Shown here piece after piece: positions 36,999 through 42,671 of a stretch of DNA of 64,000 bases (position 1 is its first letter; the number at the start of each line of letters is the position of its first letter). This DNA comes from Pseudomonas sp. PDM16. Lineage in GTDB: Bacteria > Pseudomonadota > Gammaproteobacteria > Pseudomonadales > Pseudomonadaceae. Where the stretch lies: positions 310,001-374,000 of the forward strand of contig NZ_JACVAM010000005.1 in NCBI RefSeq assembly GCF_014851865.1, written 5' to 3'. Below the pieces are notes generated by a model. The model was not told where the DNA came from. It saw nothing but the letters and a program-made list of their open reading frames with translations, and searched no databases. A program made the translations under genes and the position numbers.

Positions 36999-37525
36999 GT
37001 TGATGGTCTCCGACTGTTCGGCGGCGATTTCTAGCACCCTGACCAGGCTGGTTGCGGCTTGGCTGGTACCGTCAATCAATTTTCAATTGTGTCATTTCCG
37101 ATATCTCTCCCGAACTCCTGCGGCCTCGGTGGGTCAATGTTTGCGGTCGTTACCGCTCGCGCAGGTCCTTTTCGGGTGGGCCAGCACGCTCCCCTAGAGC
37201 ACGAAAAGGAGTTGCGCGGTGCGGTGGACGATTCCGCGGTGCCGCTAAGGATGGCGGCGCATCGGTCGACGAGAGCCGCCTGCAGCAATCATCCCTCAGT
37301 GCCTCATCTTTGCCAGCCGATGGGCTGCGTTCCCCGGCCAGTTGGCATCGATCGCTCGTACGTCATTGATATGCGTCGGTTTGTTCCGCTCTTGGAGCCT
37401 TGCCCGGCTGGTGCTGGATGTATATAGTCCTGCCCTCGCTACACGGCCCCGATTACGGGCCTCTCTAGCAGCTCGGTGTCAGCGTGCACCGGGTGTGATG
37501 TATGTCGCTCCAGTCTGATCCAGAC
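36999..37525. other. Intergenic region before the tRNA-Leu gene
   Basis: About 530 bases without a convincing protein gene. Short plus-strand frames (e.g. 37059-37427) have no ribosome site or family pattern. The only clear signal is the sigma-70-like promoter at 37400-37428, which gives the tRNA a leader of roughly 90 bases. Confidence 0.5.
37400..37428 (+). promoter_or_regulatory. Promoter of the intron-containing tRNA-Leu gene
   Basis: TTGCCC (37400-37405) and TATAGT (37423-37428) are exactly 17 bases apart. The match and spacing are good for a sigma-70 promoter. Transcription would begin near 37435. Confidence 0.65.
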
Positions 37526-37841
37526 GCCCGAGTGGTGAAATCGGTAGACACAGGGGACTTGAAAGCAATTTGAGCCCTCAGAGGGAAACCTCCGAGGTGA
37601 CGCCCGTCAAATTCGGCGAACGCCCTGGATGCCCTGGCATTCGAGCCAACGCCGAGCCAAGCCCGGACTCGACGAGCCCGGGAAGGTGTAGAGAGCAGAC
37701 GGCGGGCACCTAAGGCTTCCGGGCTAAGGTGAAGGCGTGCTCCAGACCACGAACAGTCCTTGGCTGGCGGCGAAAGTCGAAGTGGTAAGAAAATCCCCCG
37801 ACTTAACCGTCGTGCCGGTTCGACCCCGGCCTCGGGCACCA
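37526..37841 (+). tRNA. tRNA-Leu(UAA) gene interrupted by a group I intron
   Basis: Exon 1 is 37526-37560 and exon 2 is 37790-37841; joined they give an 87-nt tRNA with an encoded CCA. The acceptor stem is GCCCGAG with CTCGGGC. The anticodon stem is GGGGA with TCCCC around the loop CTTAAAA, giving anticodon UAA. The variable arm (CGAC/GTCG) is long, as in class II tRNA-Leu. The T arm is GCCGG-TTCGACC-CCGGC. Exon 1 ends with the first anticodon base (U34) and exon 2 starts with A35. Without removal of the intron the anticodon loop is destroyed, so splicing is needed for function. Confidence 0.95.
37561..37789 (+). ncRNA. Self-splicing group I intron in the tRNA-Leu anticodon
   Basis: 229-nt intron without an open reading frame for a homing endonuclease. 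P1 forms between CUU|GAA (37558-37563) and UUUGAG (37569-37574), putting the 5' splice site at a U-G wobble (U37560 with G37572). The conserved core is visible: GAGCCAAGCC at 37654-37663 (P/Q-like) and AAGGTGTAGAGAGCAGACGG at 37683-37702 (R/S-like, bulged nucleotide and P7 region). The intron ends in G37789, the expected omega-G. The core wording closely resembles cyanobacterial tRNA-Leu introns (IC3 subgroup). Fold beyond P1 was not computed. Confidence 0.93.
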
Positions 37842-37886: not shown

Positions 37887-37913
37887 AGCCGGCCTTCGTG
37901 GCCGGCTTTTTTG
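37887..37913 (+). terminator. Terminator of the tRNA-Leu gene
   Basis: AGCCGGCC and GGCCGGCT enclose a five-base loop, followed by a T-run (TTTTTT). It lies 45 bases after the tRNA CCA end. Confidence 0.92.
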
Positions 37914-37982: not shown

Positions 37983-40193
37983 TCAGAACGCTAGGGTGAA
38001 GCCTGCGTAAAGGGTCCGGCTCTGTTCTATGTAGTCGCTGTCGCGCGCGGCCGAATCACGCTTGGCGTCGCCAAGATTCTTCATCCCGCCGTTGAGGCTC
38101 AGTTGTGGGGTCAACTGGTACTGGGTGCCCAGGTTGACCAGGTGATAGGCGCCGCTGTCTACATCCCTGTTGCTGATGGTGTTGCGCAGCAGCTGGCTGC
38201 CGATGTATTGATAGCCCAACTGAGCCTGCCAGCGTGGGGAGGCCTGCCAGCTCAGGTCGATATTGCCTGTATGTCGTGGTACCTGGCGCAGGTCGCCGCC
38301 GGTGTCTCGATCCTCTGCCTCGGTCAGGGTGTAGTTGACGGACAGCCCCAGGCCATCTGCCAGTTGGGTCTTGGAGAACAGCTCGACGCCGCGGGTACGG
38401 GCGCTACTGATGTTGTAGTAGGTCAGTACGGACGGCATGTGCCCGGCCCGCCAGCCGTCGGCCAGAATCATGTCTTCGATATCGTTGTAGAACAGGTTGG
38501 CACCGAGTTCGAGGTGTTCTCCCTGGTACAGGGTACCTATTTCATAGGACGTCGCCGTTTCCGGCTTCAGGTCCGGGTTGCCGGCGACCACGCAGCGACC
38601 CCGGCAGGCGGCGATGGCGTAGCTTGGATCAGACTGGCTGATGCTCGGGGCCTTGAATGCCTTGCCCACTCCGCCCTTGATCACCCACTCGTCGGTCAGC
38701 GAATAGACGGCGTAGGCGCGTGGGCTGAACTCGGAGCCGAATGACTTGTGGTCGTCCAGGCGGCTGCCGAGGGTCAGGCGCAGGTCGCCCAGGCCGATTT
38801 CATCTTGCACGTAGAGTGCGCGCTGGAAGTCCGTGGCCTCCTCGCCGTTGAGGTTCTGATTGTGTTCGAGCAAGGTGTGGCGGTACTCGGCCCCCGCGGT
38901 GAGCAGGTGGTTTCCGAGATCGCCGCTGATCTGGCCATCCAGCGTCTGGTTGCGCTGCCGGACGTCACCGACCATGCCGCGCAACGTAGTAGTCAGTTGC
39001 GAGTCGTCGTCCAGGTTCACTTGCTCGTGGTAGTAGCGCAGGCGGGTGCTGGCATTCTGTAGTTGTGCGTTATGCGTCAGACCGAAGGTGTAGCGTTCCA
39101 TTTCCTGCTGGTTGCGCGGGAAGCTGACGTTGGAGTTGTTCCACACGCCGTCGCGCTGATCGTTGCGGGCGCTGAAGTCCAGTTCCAGCTCTTGGGTGTC
39201 GTTGAGCAGCCATGTGAGGTTGGACATGAGCGCCCAGTTCTGCCGTTGCTCCCGGGCATGGGCGCGGTCGTTGGTGGTCATGCTGGATTTCCAGGCGGCC
39301 TGGTCGCTGCCGTTGAGCACCAGGTTGCCGAGCAGGCGATCTTCGATTAACGGCCCGCTGGCGTACATCGAGCTGCTATGAATGTCGCCGCCTTCGCCCG
39401 ACGGCGTGTGCTGGTAGCTGTAGCTAATCGTTCCTTCGGCCCGATTGCCGGGGCGGAGCAGAATCACGTTGATCACACCGCCCATCGCATCGGCACCGTA
39501 CAGGGAGGACATCGGGCCCCGGATGACTTCGATCCGTTCTACTGCGCTCAGGGGAATGGCCGAAAGATCGAAATCGTTGGCATAGGCGCTGGTCAGGGCA
39601 TCGCGTGAGTTGATGCGGCGACCGTTGACCAACAGAAGGGTGTAGTCGGAGTCGAGGCCGCGCATCTTGATCTTGTGGCGGCCGTAGGTGGAGGAGGCGG
39701 TGACATTGACCCCAGGTACCTTGGCTACCGCCTCGCCGAGATCCAGGGCCTGCATCTGTTGCAGCTGCTCGTGGCCGATCACGCTGACGCTGGCGGGGGC
39801 AGTGAGTTCATTGTGATGAGTCTGGCTGGCGGTGATGACCATGTTCTCCAGATTGAACGTGGCATTCTTGATCGGTTCCAGAGCCCAGATGCGTTCGTCG
39901 ATTTGTCGGGCTTTCAGTCCGCTGTCCTGCAGCAGGCGATCCAGAGCCTGCCTGACGTTGTATTCGCCATTCAGAGTGGGGGCCTGCTTGCCTGCGAGCA
40001 GTGCCGGATCCAGTGGCAGGGTGATGCCTGCCTGCTGGGCGAGTCGGCTCAGGGACTCTTCCAGAGTCGACCTCGGCAGGTCATAGGCGATGACTGCGGG
40101 CTCGGCCCAGGCGCTCATGGCGGGTAGGCCCAGGCCACTCCCTGCGAGGGCGGCTTGCAGGGCGAGCGCGAGGTGATGTTTGCGGTGATGCAT
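37983..40193 (-). CDS. TonB-dependent siderophore receptor with STN signalling domain (module 1)
   Basis: 736-residue outer-membrane receptor. A signal peptide (to about residue 30, AWAEP) is followed by a secretin/TonB short N-terminal domain (about 35-105: YDLPRSTLEESLSRLAQQAG). The plug domain has VRGPMSSLYGADAMGGVINVI-like wording (about 130-245), then a 22-strand barrel ends in the terminal aromatic strand (YAGFTLAF). The STN domain shows it signals to a FecR/FecI pair, found directly upstream on the same strand. Cys in ACRGRCV may form an extracellular disulfide. The ligand is not deducible. The ATG at 40193 has AAGGAGC upstream. Confidence 0.93.
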   Translation of the reverse strand: MHHRKHHLALALQAALAGSGLGLPAMSAWAEPAVIAYDLPRSTLEESLSRLAQQAGITLPLDPALLAGKQAPTLNGEYNVRQALDRLLQDSGLKARQIDERIWALEPIKNATFNLENMVITASQTHHNELTAPASVSVIGHEQLQQMQALDLGEAVAKVPGVNVTASSTYGRHKIKMRGLDSDYTLLLVNGRRINSRDALTSAYANDFDLSAIPLSAVERIEVIRGPMSSLYGADAMGGVINVILLRPGNRAEGTISYSYQHTPSGEGGDIHSSSMYASGPLIEDRLLGNLVLNGSDQAAWKSSMTTNDRAHAREQRQNWALMSNLTWLLNDTQELELDFSARNDQRDGVWNNSNVSFPRNQQEMERYTFGLTHNAQLQNASTRLRYYHEQVNLDDDSQLTTTLRGMVGDVRQRNQTLDGQISGDLGNHLLTAGAEYRHTLLEHNQNLNGEEATDFQRALYVQDEIGLGDLRLTLGSRLDDHKSFGSEFSPRAYAVYSLTDEWVIKGGVGKAFKAPSISQSDPSYAIAACRGRCVVAGNPDLKPETATSYEIGTLYQGEHLELGANLFYNDIEDMILADGWRAGHMPSVLTYYNISSARTRGVELFSKTQLADGLGLSVNYTLTEAEDRDTGGDLRQVPRHTGNIDLSWQASPRWQAQLGYQYIGSQLLRNTISNRDVDSGAYHLVNLGTQYQLTPQLSLNGGMKNLGDAKRDSAARDSDYIEQSRTLYAGFTLAF

Positions 40194-40277
40194 GGACAAG
40201 AAGCTCCTTCGACGAGACAGTGGTTTTCTCTAATGTCGAAGAGCTGAGCGAAACCCGTAATGGAGTGACGGAAGTTT

Positions 40278-41225
40278 TCAGGCAGGTACGATGCGCGTCC
40301 ATAGACTGGACAGGCGCTGGGTCTTTACCGGCAGGGAGGCGCTCAGGGCATCAAGTGACCGTTCGATATCGTCCAGCTGGAAAACGCCGGAGACCGGCAG
40401 CTCGGCGACGTCGCCCGAGCACAGCAACCAGCCGTTACGGTAGCGCGCCAGTTCGGCAACCAGCTGGGCTAGCGGGATGCGTTTGACGACCAGTTGCCCC
40501 TGAACCCAGGTGCCGGGTATCAGCACGCCATCCGACACGGGATGGAGACCGCTGGTGCTGATCTGCCATTCCTGCCCTACCGTAAGGCGGGACATGGGCT
40601 GGTGGGCTGTCCGCACTTCGACCGTACCGTCCAGAATGGCCAGACGATGGAGCTTGCCCTGTTGGTGCAGGTCGAAGCGTGCGCTGCGCGTTTCCAGCAG
40701 CAACTCTCCGCTGCGCACCTGCAGCGCGGGAAGTGTCGGAGCATGATGAGCCACCTGGATCTGACCACGCTGCAGCAGGATACGGGGAGGCTGCGAATCC
40801 ACCTGCCGGTCTGCCGAGCTGTCCGTGTTCAGCCAGAGGTGGGTATGTTCGGCCAGCGAAAAGCTGCTTCGTTGGCCGACGGTTGTGGCGAATTCGCTTG
40901 TTCCTGTCGGCGTGCCCAGTGCCAGCCAGCCGGCCCCTGCGCTTGCACCGACCAGGCCCAGGAGCTTGAGGGTCTGGCGCCTGGAGATCTTGCTGCGAGT
41001 GCGGTCCTGCAGGGCCAGTTGTGCGATCCGGGCCTGTGGCGGGGCTAGCTCGAACAACTCCTCGCTGGCCAGCAGAGCCTGCCAGGCCGCTTCGTGAGCG
41101 GGGCTGGCGGTTCGCCAGCTGGTGCACTCCTGCCAGGTCTCGTCGGGGGCTTCTCCGGAGCGCAAGCGGACCAGCCAGGTGATGGCCTGTTCCAGTTCGT
41201 CGTCACTCCAGTGCGCCGTGCTCAT
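40278..41225 (-). CDS. FecR-family anti-sigma/transmembrane regulator (module 1)
   Basis: 315-residue inner-membrane regulator. An N-terminal cytoplasmic DUF4880-type segment (WLVRLRSGEAPDETWQECTS) binds the sigma factor. A transmembrane helix follows near residues 85-105 (LKLLGLVGASAGAGWLAL), then the periplasmic FecR domain (GQRSSFSLAEHTHLWLNTDS). The C-terminal STN-interacting part (GVFQLDDIERSLDALSASL) would contact the receptor. The ATG overlaps the fecI stop (ATGA). Confidence 0.93.
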   Translation of the reverse strand: MSTAHWSDDELEQAITWLVRLRSGEAPDETWQECTSWRTASPAHEAAWQALLASEELFELAPPQARIAQLALQDRTRSKISRRQTLKLLGLVGASAGAGWLALGTPTGTSEFATTVGQRSSFSLAEHTHLWLNTDSSADRQVDSQPPRILLQRGQIQVAHHAPTLPALQVRSGELLLETRSARFDLHQQGKLHRLAILDGTVEVRTAHQPMSRLTVGQEWQISTSGLHPVSDGVLIPGTWVQGQLVVKRIPLAQLVAELARYRNGWLLCSGDVAELPVSGVFQLDDIERSLDALSASLPVKTQRLSSLWTRIVPA

Positions 41226-41737
41226 GACCAGCGGGCCTGGTAGCAGTGGCGCATGGCGGTGGCCATGTACTTTTCGACCGAACTCAGGCTCGTCCCCAGC
41301 CGGGTGGCGATGTCGCGGTAGGGCATGCCTTCCAGACGCGAGAGCAGGTAGGCGTTGCGTACCTTCGATGGCAGACCATCGAGCAGGGCATCGATACGTA
41401 TCAGTGTTTCGAGCAGTAGCAGGCGATCTTCGGGGGATACCTCGGTTGCCTCAGGCTGGCTCGCCAGCGCTTCGAGGTAGGCCCGCTCAAGGCGTTGCCG
41501 GCGTACGCGATCGACCATCAGTCCCTTGGCCACGGTCGTCAGCCAGGCTCTGGGCTGCCTCAGCTCACTGATGACAGGAGGGCGGCCGATCAGTTGGAGG
41601 AATGTGTCCTGCATCAGGTCTGCGGCTGTCTCGCGATGCTGCAGGCGCTGGTGTAGCCAGTTCAGCAGCCAGGCGTGATGATCGACGTAGAGCTCGTGCA
41701 GTTCCTGGCGACGCGGAGAGGGAAGGGCGTGAGGCAC
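41222..41737 (-). CDS. FecI-family ECF sigma factor (module 1)
   Basis: 171-residue extracytoplasmic-function sigma factor. Region 2 contains ETAADLMQDTFLQLIGRP, and region 4 has EGMPYRDIATRLGTSLSSVEKY, a typical HTH. The start is GTG at 41737 with AAGGAG six bases upstream. A Fur-box-like sequence lies 28 bases further upstream. It heads a fecI-fecR-receptor module and should direct transcription of the receptor when the ligand is bound. Confidence 0.94.
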   Translation of the reverse strand: MPHALPSPRRQELHELYVDHHAWLLNWLHQRLQHRETAADLMQDTFLQLIGRPPVISELRQPRAWLTTVAKGLMVDRVRRQRLERAYLEALASQPEATEVSPEDRLLLLETLIRIDALLDGLPSKVRNAYLLSRLEGMPYRDIATRLGTSLSSVEKYMATAMRHCYQARWS

Positions 41738-42110
41738 CGATACTCCTTGGTGCTACGTGTTATTGAAAATAAATCTCATTATGCGTTTTGCCGACGATAC
41801 CAGCAACCCGGCCTCTGCGAGGGTGCCAACCGGTTCAGGGTGTTTGTAGAGGGAGAGGGCAACTGCCACGTGCAGGCGAAGTGCATGGTCGCCTGGACGA
41901 TGCCCGCTGGCACTGGCCGTCATGATCCGAGCATGTGCGCGTCGGTGGCGAGCGCCTGTGATGCATGCAGGGTCGGCGCTGGGCGAGTGGCGGGTAGTGT
42001 TCGATTACTACGGTTCGTGCGGCCTGATCGGCTTTCATCTGGAGTGGTTTGGCGGCCCGCTATTGCTGGCGCGGGTTGGCTGATGGCCGTTCGCCACGTT
42101 TATCGATTGA
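41738..42110. promoter_or_regulatory. Control region of iron module 1 with Fur-box-like site
   Basis: GAAAATAAATCTCATTATG at 41765-41783 matches the 19-base Fur consensus at about 13 positions and sits just upstream of the fecI GTG. This suggests iron repression of the sigma gene. The rest of the roughly 370 bases to smrA has no gene I can support, only short overlapping frames. Confidence 0.55.
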
Positions 42111-42671
42111 TCAGAATTCGTCTCTGCCCTCGAGCATAGTGCGCTTGAGCAGTACATATACGGCGCCAGTGCCACCGTGCCGGGGCAGGCAGGAGGTGAA
42201 GCCTAGCACCTGCGGGTGCTGGCGCAGCCAGGTATTGACGTGGCTCTTGATCATGGGGCGCTTGCCATCGGTACGTACCGCTTTACCGTGGGTCACGCGT
42301 GCGCAGCGTACTTCCATGCGGGCGGCTTCGTCGAAGAAGCTCCAGAGGGTTTCGCGTGCTTTTTCAACGGTCATTCCGTGCAGGTCGAGGCTCCCTTCGA
42401 AGGGCACCTGGCCCGCCTTGAGCTTGCGCATCTGACCATCCTGTACGCCGTCTCGTGCCCAATACAGCTCGTCCTCTGCGCCCACATCAATGACGAACTG
42501 ATCGGAAAGGCCGTCCACCCTGGTTGCTTCGGCCTTGACCGTTGCGGCCTGGCGCAGCGTGTTGATGCGTTGGCGGTCGGCCTTGGGCTTGCCGGTATCC
42601 GCACGATCATGGTTGATCGGCTTGACGCCACGCACGGCGGACTGAAACAGGGAAAAATCGTCGTCTTGCAT
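42111..42671 (-). CDS. smrA: Smr-domain protein (DNA endonuclease SmrA type)
   Basis: 186-residue soluble protein. The C-terminal Smr domain has LDLHGMTVEKA (the LDxH motif), RVTHGKAVRT and the final GGTGAVYVLLK. The N-terminal half is charged and probably disordered. Short Smr proteins of this kind nick DNA or RNA in vitro. It is transcribed alone, with the ATG at 42671. Confidence 0.92.
   Translation of the reverse strand: MQDDDFSLFQSAVRGVKPINHDRADTGKPKADRQRINTLRQAATVKAEATRVDGLSDQFVIDVGAEDELYWARDGVQDGQMRKLKAGQVPFEGSLDLHGMTVEKARETLWSFFDEAARMEVRCARVTHGKAVRTDGKRPMIKSHVNTWLRQHPQVLGFTSCLPRHGGTGAVYVLLKRTMLEGRDEF

Follow-up and report, generated by a model that had tools for sequence, protein, structure and literature searches.

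A split tRNA-Leu(UAA) gene in Pseudomonas sp. PDM16 as a probable relic of integrative conjugative elements that replace the tRNA gene they disrupt

The only tRNA-Leu(UAA) gene found in Pseudomonas sp. PDM16 is split by an intron of predicted self-splicing type and belongs to a lineage of genes carried by integrative elements, a link that the initial annotation of this DNA did not contain. The stretch analyzed, hereafter the window, comprises 64,000 nucleotides of contig NZ_JACVAM010000005.1. We consider, with a probability of about three in four, that its intron-bearing gene is a domesticated replacement tRNA, a relic of an integrative conjugative element (ICE) lineage. The window itself is not an ICE: it contains no attL or attR remnant, and neither an integrase at E ≤ 1e-100 nor a half tRNA was found in the PDM16 genome (G000). 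Its ICE past is therefore deduced from its relatives, in which tRNA-Leu(UAA) intron genes are tied to ICEs that split and replace the resident tRNA. This tie is what is new here; the att core of these elements was already known from ICEKKS102Tn4677. The features of the gene and its surroundings are as follows.

37396 to 37440, + strand: promoter-like region of resident type, by its match to the region 5' of the intronless tRNA-Leu(UAA) of relatives
37526 to 37841, + strand: tRNA-Leu(UAA) with intron (exons of 35 and 52 nt, intron of 229 nt), ARAGORN with introns
37526 to 37560, + strand: 5' exon of tRNA-Leu(UAA), last base U34, ARAGORN with introns
37558 to 37574, + strand: P1 hairpin, 37558-37563 with 37569-37574, U.G at the 5' splice site, read from the sequence
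37561 to 37789, + strand: group I-type intron, 229 nt, from ARAGORN, Rfam RF00028, alignment and covariance model
37603 to 37608, + strand: 5' strand of P3, partner 37701-37706, from RNAalifold columns 77-82/189-194
37693 to 37697, + strand: 5' strand of P7 (GAGCA), partner 37738-37742 (TGCTC), read from the sequence
37790 to 37841, + strand: 3' exon of tRNA-Leu(UAA) including CCA, ARAGORN with introns
37887 to 37912, + strand: likely intrinsic terminator, hairpin and T-run, read from the sequence

When run without introns, ARAGORN reported zero tRNAs in the whole window. With introns allowed, a single one was obtained, tRNA-Leu(taa) at 37526-37841, whose intron lies at tRNA position 36; joining of the exons gave an 87-nt tRNA-Leu(UAA) with a cloverleaf, a UAA anticodon and a CCA end. 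The initial annotation had placed a 229-nt insert in a tRNA-Leu(UAA) at these same coordinates, between U34 and A35, and the exon ends of ARAGORN agree with it. It had also described a P1 with a U-G wobble at the 5' splice site and an intron ending in G, which correspond to the pair U37560.G37572 and to G37789; across 59 aligned introns the splice-site pair was U-G in 55 and C-G in 4. Four introns found in C34 genes (tRNA-Leu(CAA) type; L110, L159, L166 and L169) have this C-G pair in place of U.G.

The proposed assignment to group I holds in the form of a group I-type intron with a P3-P7 core. RNAalifold predicted 55 pairs for the 59 introns, and in 36 of them one or more sequences carry changes on both strands that preserve the pairing; in P3 such changes were seen in 6/6 pairs. 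P7, recognized by eye in the alignment and located outside the nested structure of RNAalifold, reads GACTA/TAGTC in many other rows. Comparison with the Rfam group I model RF00028, a check suggested along with the annotation, gave a divided answer: positions 37551-37745 matched with an E value of 1.6e-7 in a 551-base search, but the 35.8 bits lie under the gathering score of 50, which is the curators' cut-off and not a biochemical definition. At gathering score, Rfam gave 0 matches in the whole window and the family search gave 0 in the PDM16 genome, the same search being positive in 4 of 14 control genomes. Six of ten related loci scanned with RF00028 matched at 36.8-38.9 bits, and the other four (L032, L033, L073 and L074) had no match at E ≤ 0.001. 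A core covariance model, trained on 20 sequences including the window intron, scored this intron at E=1.1e-28 in its own genome. Standard annotation misses split tRNA genes of this kind, as both ARAGORN without introns and Rfam at gathering score were blank here. Weak sub-gathering Rfam matches near the gene (SorX, suhB, anti-hemB and NrsZ) overlap the terminator and were taken as chance.

The PDM16 assembly (5.09 Mb, 44 contigs) is 100% complete by markers. All ten places of long (class II size) tRNAs were read; the other leucine tRNAs are CAG (two), GAG, UAG and CAA, and no other UAA-reading leucine tRNA was found in the whole assembly, nor any intact or half tRNA match to CTYAAAATC...GGTTCRA. 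The search for a second intact UAA tRNA that had been advised thus returned none, and UUA decoding would rest on the intron gene. It had been suggested that the reading of both UUA and UUG depends on a ribozyme. This stands for UUA, but not for UUG, which should be readable without the intron gene since an intact tRNA-Leu(CAA) exists in the genome. One could suppose from the RF00028 score below the gathering threshold that the gene has decayed, or that the intron stays unspliced and UUA is read by other means; this is very hard to believe, as the cloverleaf is intact, the CCA is present, the core covaries and no other UAA tRNA was found in the assembly.

Sporadic occurrence, another early suggestion, was borne out: by BLAST, the full-length intron gene was present in 6 of the 398 genomes of the genus (G000, G053, G148, G193, G092 and G302), at 81-100% identity. 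The intron of G053 is identical to one on contig 43 of Pseudomonas sp. MRCP1333. In G053 a Smr-like gene directly follows the intron tRNA gene; in the window, the tRNA gene is separated from a Smr-like gene by TonB-type receptor, FecR-like and sigma-factor-like genes (37983-42671, named by eye). In a wider search with a pattern for the 3' splice region, genome contigs contained at least 119 matches and viral contigs 31, the matches listed spanning alpha-, beta- and gammaproteobacteria, Acidobacteria and others. Several of the viral-contig matches (L195-L225) lie in tRNA-Leu genes without an encoded CCA. The core covariance model detected 48 places in 41 of 398 Pseudomonadota genomes, and 47 of these were intron-bearing tRNAs by ARAGORN, whose isotype labels in this sample are partly wrong (Phe, His and Ser on Leu/CAU exons) and were not counted.

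The arrangement in the relatives can be followed in G148, a complete Pseudomonas chromosome, in which the break in the resident tRNA-Leu(UAA) falls within the anticodon loop and attL and attR lie 46 kb apart. The resident 5' half ends with GGGACTTAAAATC at C1:4616774 (attL), the resident 3' half starts with CTTAAAATCCCT at C1:4570712 (attR), and the two halves joined form a proper tRNA. On the attL side an arm of ~165 nt is followed by a complete intron-bearing tRNA-Leu(UAA). A 399-aa tyrosine integrase (Pfam PF00589) is encoded 176 nt from attR, and arm-like repeats (GGGGCCAGCTAGGCGCCAG; GGGGCCGGCTAGGAGCCAG) are found close to both element ends. Ten proteins were scanned with Pfam, which recognized TrbI, CagX/TrbG, TrbE, T2SSE/TrbB, a VirD4-type coupling protein, DUF3363 and ParB. 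In this one element, G148, the hallmarks of the Tn4371 family of ICEs (tyrosine integrase at one end, trb/tra genes, relaxase and par) are thus present.

The same layout was sought from the introns. Of 159 pattern loci, 150 were used and nine were dropped (eight without a recognized exon 1, one with a score of 5). Among the matches listed, a truncated tRNA-Leu 5' half lies upstream in 22 of the 150 intron loci, and its wobble base is that of the intron gene in 22/22 (19 U34 and 3 C34, L092 being doubtful). No truncated half was found within 800 nt in the 128 others among the matches listed, which suggests that many copies have long been fixed or have another origin. The missing 3' half, sought in 26 genomes or records, gave 17 matches: 15 were lone halves preceded by other DNA and two were intact genes, in genomes whose element lies in tRNA-Leu(CAA). 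Together with G148, the lone halves make 16 attL/attR pairs among the matches listed, from alpha-, beta- and gammaproteobacteria, in all of which the element occupies the anticodon loop of the resident tRNA-Leu(UAA) and holds a complete intron-bearing copy ~165 nt inside its left end. In pairs whose two ends share a contig, the distance between them is 14-109 kb. The two resident halves form a 7/7 acceptor stem in 15 of the 16 pairs (6/7 in the remaining one); the resident 5' half combined with the 3' half of the intron gene reaches 7/7 in only 4/16. The core CTTAAAATC is found in attR of 16/16 pairs and in attL of 13/16, the attL of L079, L100 and L137 sharing only CTTAAAA. Three sister elements show the same arrangement in tRNA-Leu(CAA), and all 18 attR regions read (15 UAA, 3 CAA) contain one integrase family at 66-100% identity, one copy being broken. 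In G399 and G412 attL is present and attR was not found; in G422 and G427, the right end duplicates the tRNA 3' half and an intact tRNA copy lies next to it.

In an intron tree from which the viral contigs, the dropped rows and introns above 250 nt (such as L129) were left out, the window intron falls in a clade of 41 (support 89/92) that holds 18 of the 21 attL rows of the tree. Its closest grouping, with G053, is weakly supported, as are many forks. The horizontal acquisition proposed in the initial annotation is supported, the lineage of the gene being one that is found on integrative elements.

These loci suggest the following course of events, whose first two steps are visible in the relatives. 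A Tn4371-type ICE integrates in the anticodon loop of the host tRNA-Leu(UAA), so that the 5' half is left at attL and the 3' half at attR, and brings, near attL, a complete tRNA-Leu(UAA) with a group I-type intron. Splicing of the ICE copy would keep UUA readable, so that the host would survive the loss of its own gene and then depend on the foreign one. As the whole gene is brought and the host half needs no match, the element might be able to use a short target in very different hosts. The intron would travel between species inside the replacement tRNA, with no need of a homing endonuclease, and its dispersal by replacement elements is well supported. In the case of the window, this Pseudomonas lineage would at some time have received such an element, or its tRNA gene; later losses would have removed both the element and the resident gene, the intron gene staying behind a resident-type promoter region as sole tRNA-Leu(UAA). 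The route by which group I introns of bacterial tRNA genes, lacking an endonuclease, pass between distant species is an old question, and conjugative elements that destroy a host tRNA gene and bring an intron-bearing one would be a concrete vehicle for them.

The surroundings of the window gene bear on this history. In L037 and L046, an intronless tRNA-Leu(UAA) directly follows a Gly-Cys cluster; in PDM16 this cluster has no following Leu and lies ~90 kb from the intron gene on the same contig. Positions 37396-37440 are 88.9% identical over 45 nt (E=3e-10) to the region 5' of the intronless gene of G377, and 95-100% identical over 15-22 nt to that of three further intronless relatives. The window gene thus looks to be placed behind a putative promoter region of resident type, which, like the missing Leu, we count in favor of the ICE relic; the 85 nt separating this region from the tRNA gene and the distance to the Gly-Cys cluster weigh against it. 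A resident-looking promoter region and a window without ICE remains are what one would expect had the intron entered the resident tRNA-Leu(UAA) of this Pseudomonas on its own, through reverse splicing or homing, with no ICE involved here. We find such a move unlikely. Among the BLAST matches listed, the exons of the query are 87-90% (5' part) and 81-89% (3' part) identical to intronless relatives, and the acceptor stem and D-arm are of element type: the 5' exon reads GCCCGAG TGGTG ... ACACA, the resident type being GCCCGAA TGGCG ... GACGCA (L037, L039 and L046). Insertion into a resident gene is also at odds with the truncated resident halves of the related loci. The domesticated replacement tRNA is the reading that we retain.

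The association between element and intron was also approached from the integrase. In the genus, 21 of 398 genomes had an integrase at E ≤ 1e-100. Four of these integrases (85-100% identical) came from exactly the four genomes with attL, attR and the intron gene. The other 17 genomes have sister integrases (64-70% identical) at 22 loci, of which 21 end at a T-tract (L300 was without a call), and no tRNA T-arm was found within 420 nt of the start in these 22 loci. By BLAST, none of the 17 carries the intron gene, that is 4/4 for the tRNA-targeting against 0/17 for the sister integrases (Fisher p=1.7e-4, kinship ignored). In the family of Ottowia (G409), 40 of 354 genomes had the integrase at E ≤ 1e-160, and 32 of the 40 were searched for introns. 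Eleven integrases were 92-97% identical, with an attR in tRNA-Leu(UAA) in 10/11; nine of these ten genomes have the intron gene and an adjacent truncated resident half, and in G1299, which has integrase and attR on a contig that ends inside the element, no intron gene was found. Of the 64-70% group, 21 genomes were covered. Three have an attR in tRNA-Leu(CAA), and in all three a truncated CAA half accompanies a Leu(CAA) intron gene. The other 18 are of terminator type, with a T-tract end read in 16 (all but G1273 and G1282), some of these genomes having further integrase copies beyond the ends read; two of them (G1469 and G1490) have a Leu(UAA) intron gene with no remnant, and in G1300, G1337 and G1451 tRNA-CAU-like genes match the core weakly and in part (39-46 bits). 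One match from these last three genomes, L426, is an intron gene of tRNA-CAU-like type, preceded by a truncated CAU 5' half (27/27 bases). The intron gene is therefore present in 12/13 tRNA-targeting against 2/18 sister genomes (Fisher p=7.6e-6, kinship ignored), a count outside which G1489 was kept, its contig ending at the integrase.

Other tRNAs are affected as well. In six of the 47 intron tRNAs (L316, L321, L327, L343, L351 and L356), a second copy of exon 1 lies upstream, agreeing at 21-27 of 27 bases; downstream, no such copy was found in the 47, the best reaching 17/27 bases. L321/L343 and L413/L428 are not independent, since G1151 and G1290 have identical coordinates and are probably one genome, and likewise G538 and G1282. 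The cut lies in the anticodon loop in L351 (tRNA-CAU; G931), in the T-loop in L316 (tRNA-Arg(UCU)) and L352 (tRNA-CAU, 18/27 bases), and near the D-arm in L356. The right ends of the L351, L316, L352 and L356 elements were found about 33, 15, 9 and 33 kb away, respectively. No integrase of the Leu-element family was found beside the attR of G931, G167, G1124 and G853, so that these elements would use other recombinases. It seems, then, that split tRNAs are replaced by intron-bearing copies with different crossover positions and different recombinases.

What the intron does in these elements is a separate matter. It could be a mere passenger on the replacement tRNA genes, an addition to the ICE reading to which we give slightly less than an even chance. 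A replacement tRNA would be a good vehicle in which introns spread, because the host cannot lose it once its own gene is split. Replacements with an intron involve several isoacceptors and crossovers at three or more positions (in the anticodon loop, in the T-loop and near the D-arm), and thus no single crossover explains the intron. A passenger should, however, often be missing, yet the integrase-first searches showed the intron in 4/4 and 12/13 tRNA-targeting genomes; the T-loop and D-arm elements were found via their introns, a route by which intronless elements would escape.

The other addition, which we advance tentatively, is that the intron serves to hide the att core from the integrase of the element. 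An intronless replacement tRNA-Leu(UAA) would contain CTTAAAATC and be a target for that same integrase. Because of the intron, the core is discontinuous in the DNA, at U34|A35 (C34|A35 in tRNA-Leu(CAA)), so that the replacement has no intact core and may be hidden; splicing would restore the core in the RNA. In all 16 pairs the core (CTTAAAA in L079, L100 and L137) spans the intron insertion site, and in the three Leu(CAA) elements with attR read the core CTCAAAA goes with an intron at C34|A35. The crossover of the tRNA-CAU element (G931) is likewise in the anticodon loop, and the sister integrases that target T-tracts or terminators are mostly without an intron gene. G1463 adds one case: besides its element in tRNA-Leu(UAA), it has a second integrase copy, of which only the right end was read, located at a non-tRNA CTTAAAATC, as expected if the tRNA target is spent. 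This integrase (L435; G1463:C1:3137000-3141500) is 93% identical to that of G148 and ends at CTTAAAATCCATAAATTCCC, beside a LysR-like frame. However, L316 and L352 (T-loop) and L356 (near the D-arm) carry intron-bearing replacements with an uninterrupted core, so hiding is not universal, and these loci rule out that the intron always hides the core as a general rule. Moreover, U34|A35 is the insertion site of the cyanobacterial and plastid tRNA-Leu(UAA) group I introns too, and core and site could coincide by chance. Camouflage by the intron is thus possible. The reading that joins the parts (tRNA-splitting elements carry intron-bearing replacements, the intron is DNA-level camouflage in the anticodon-loop class, and the window is a fossil of such an event) is one that we regard as less likely than not. 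If true, the host would have been left with neither the target of the element nor the element.

A group I intron was reportedly described by Vepritskiy et al. in 2002 in the tRNA-Leu(UAA) of a subsurface gammaproteobacterium. This intron and those of cyanobacteria and plastids share with the window intron the isoacceptor, the site after U34 and a size near 230 nt. The window gene differs from all of these in that its lineage is found on ICEs splitting the resident tRNA; the work of Vepritskiy et al. is not known to have made a link to ICEs.

The nearest described elements are those whose published 9-bp att is GATTTTAAG, ICEKKS102Tn4677 and ICEbphKF708, according to the consulted portions of three papers (PMC9960961, PMC6563109, PMC11448139). 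That att, in ICEKKS102Tn4677, is the reverse complement of CTTAAAATC, the core of the elements presented here. As far as these published descriptions go, both also resemble our elements in having trb/tra-type genes, a tyrosine integrase and a broad proteobacterial host range. One account puts such an element upstream of a Gly-tRNA gene and describes its transfer to alpha-, beta- and gammaproteobacteria (PMC11448139); in another, the sites of the family are the 3' ends of tRNA-Leu genes (PMC9960961). Tn4371 proper and its close sisters are given att TTTTTCAT in an excerpt of PMC2789088, and the Tn4371-sister integrases of the genus (64-70% identical) have right ends located at T-tracts rather than in tRNA genes. 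Nowhere in the main texts of PMC9960961, PMC6563109, PMC11448139 and PMC2789088 does the word "intron" occur. Classical tRNA-targeting islands and prophages (PMC4383910) likewise use a site-specific tyrosine integrase in a tRNA gene, but they restore the target by a gene fragment, whereas in the present elements the tRNA gene is left broken and its replacement is a complete gene with an intron. The group I introns of tRNA-Ile2 and tRNA-fMet are also found in bacterial tRNA anticodon loops, including those of Acidovorax and Burkholderia; unlike for the elements here, no mobile element is mentioned in the sections of PMC8450103 at hand. By title or abstract, no paper was found that links introns with Tn4371, ICEs, genomic islands or attachment sites, in a search that had most subscription journals outside its reach.

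Some related genes were seen away from complete elements. Seven Achromobacter genomes (L118, L139, L141, L161, L179, L193 and L095) have a related tRNA-Leu(UAA) intron gene and no element remnant, as if the gene were fixed in the genus. On two Cupriavidus megaplasmids (L073:3001-3153 and L074:3001-3149), the arm, the first exon and a 5' part of the intron are followed by other sequence, i.e., these are broken copies. Two plasmid records with a fragment next to aac(3)-IId were opened, and both resistance plasmids (L072:3722-4189 and L071:1111-1410) carry the arm and a complete intron-bearing tRNA-Leu(UAA) beside this gene. The fragment is of the alphaproteobacterial element type, with 92% identity to L100 over 354 nt. 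It is annotated as "hypothetical protein" in E. coli among the 12 matches listed, and 645 of the 5426 complete E. coli genomes contain it, at 681 places in all, of which 596 are on plasmids.
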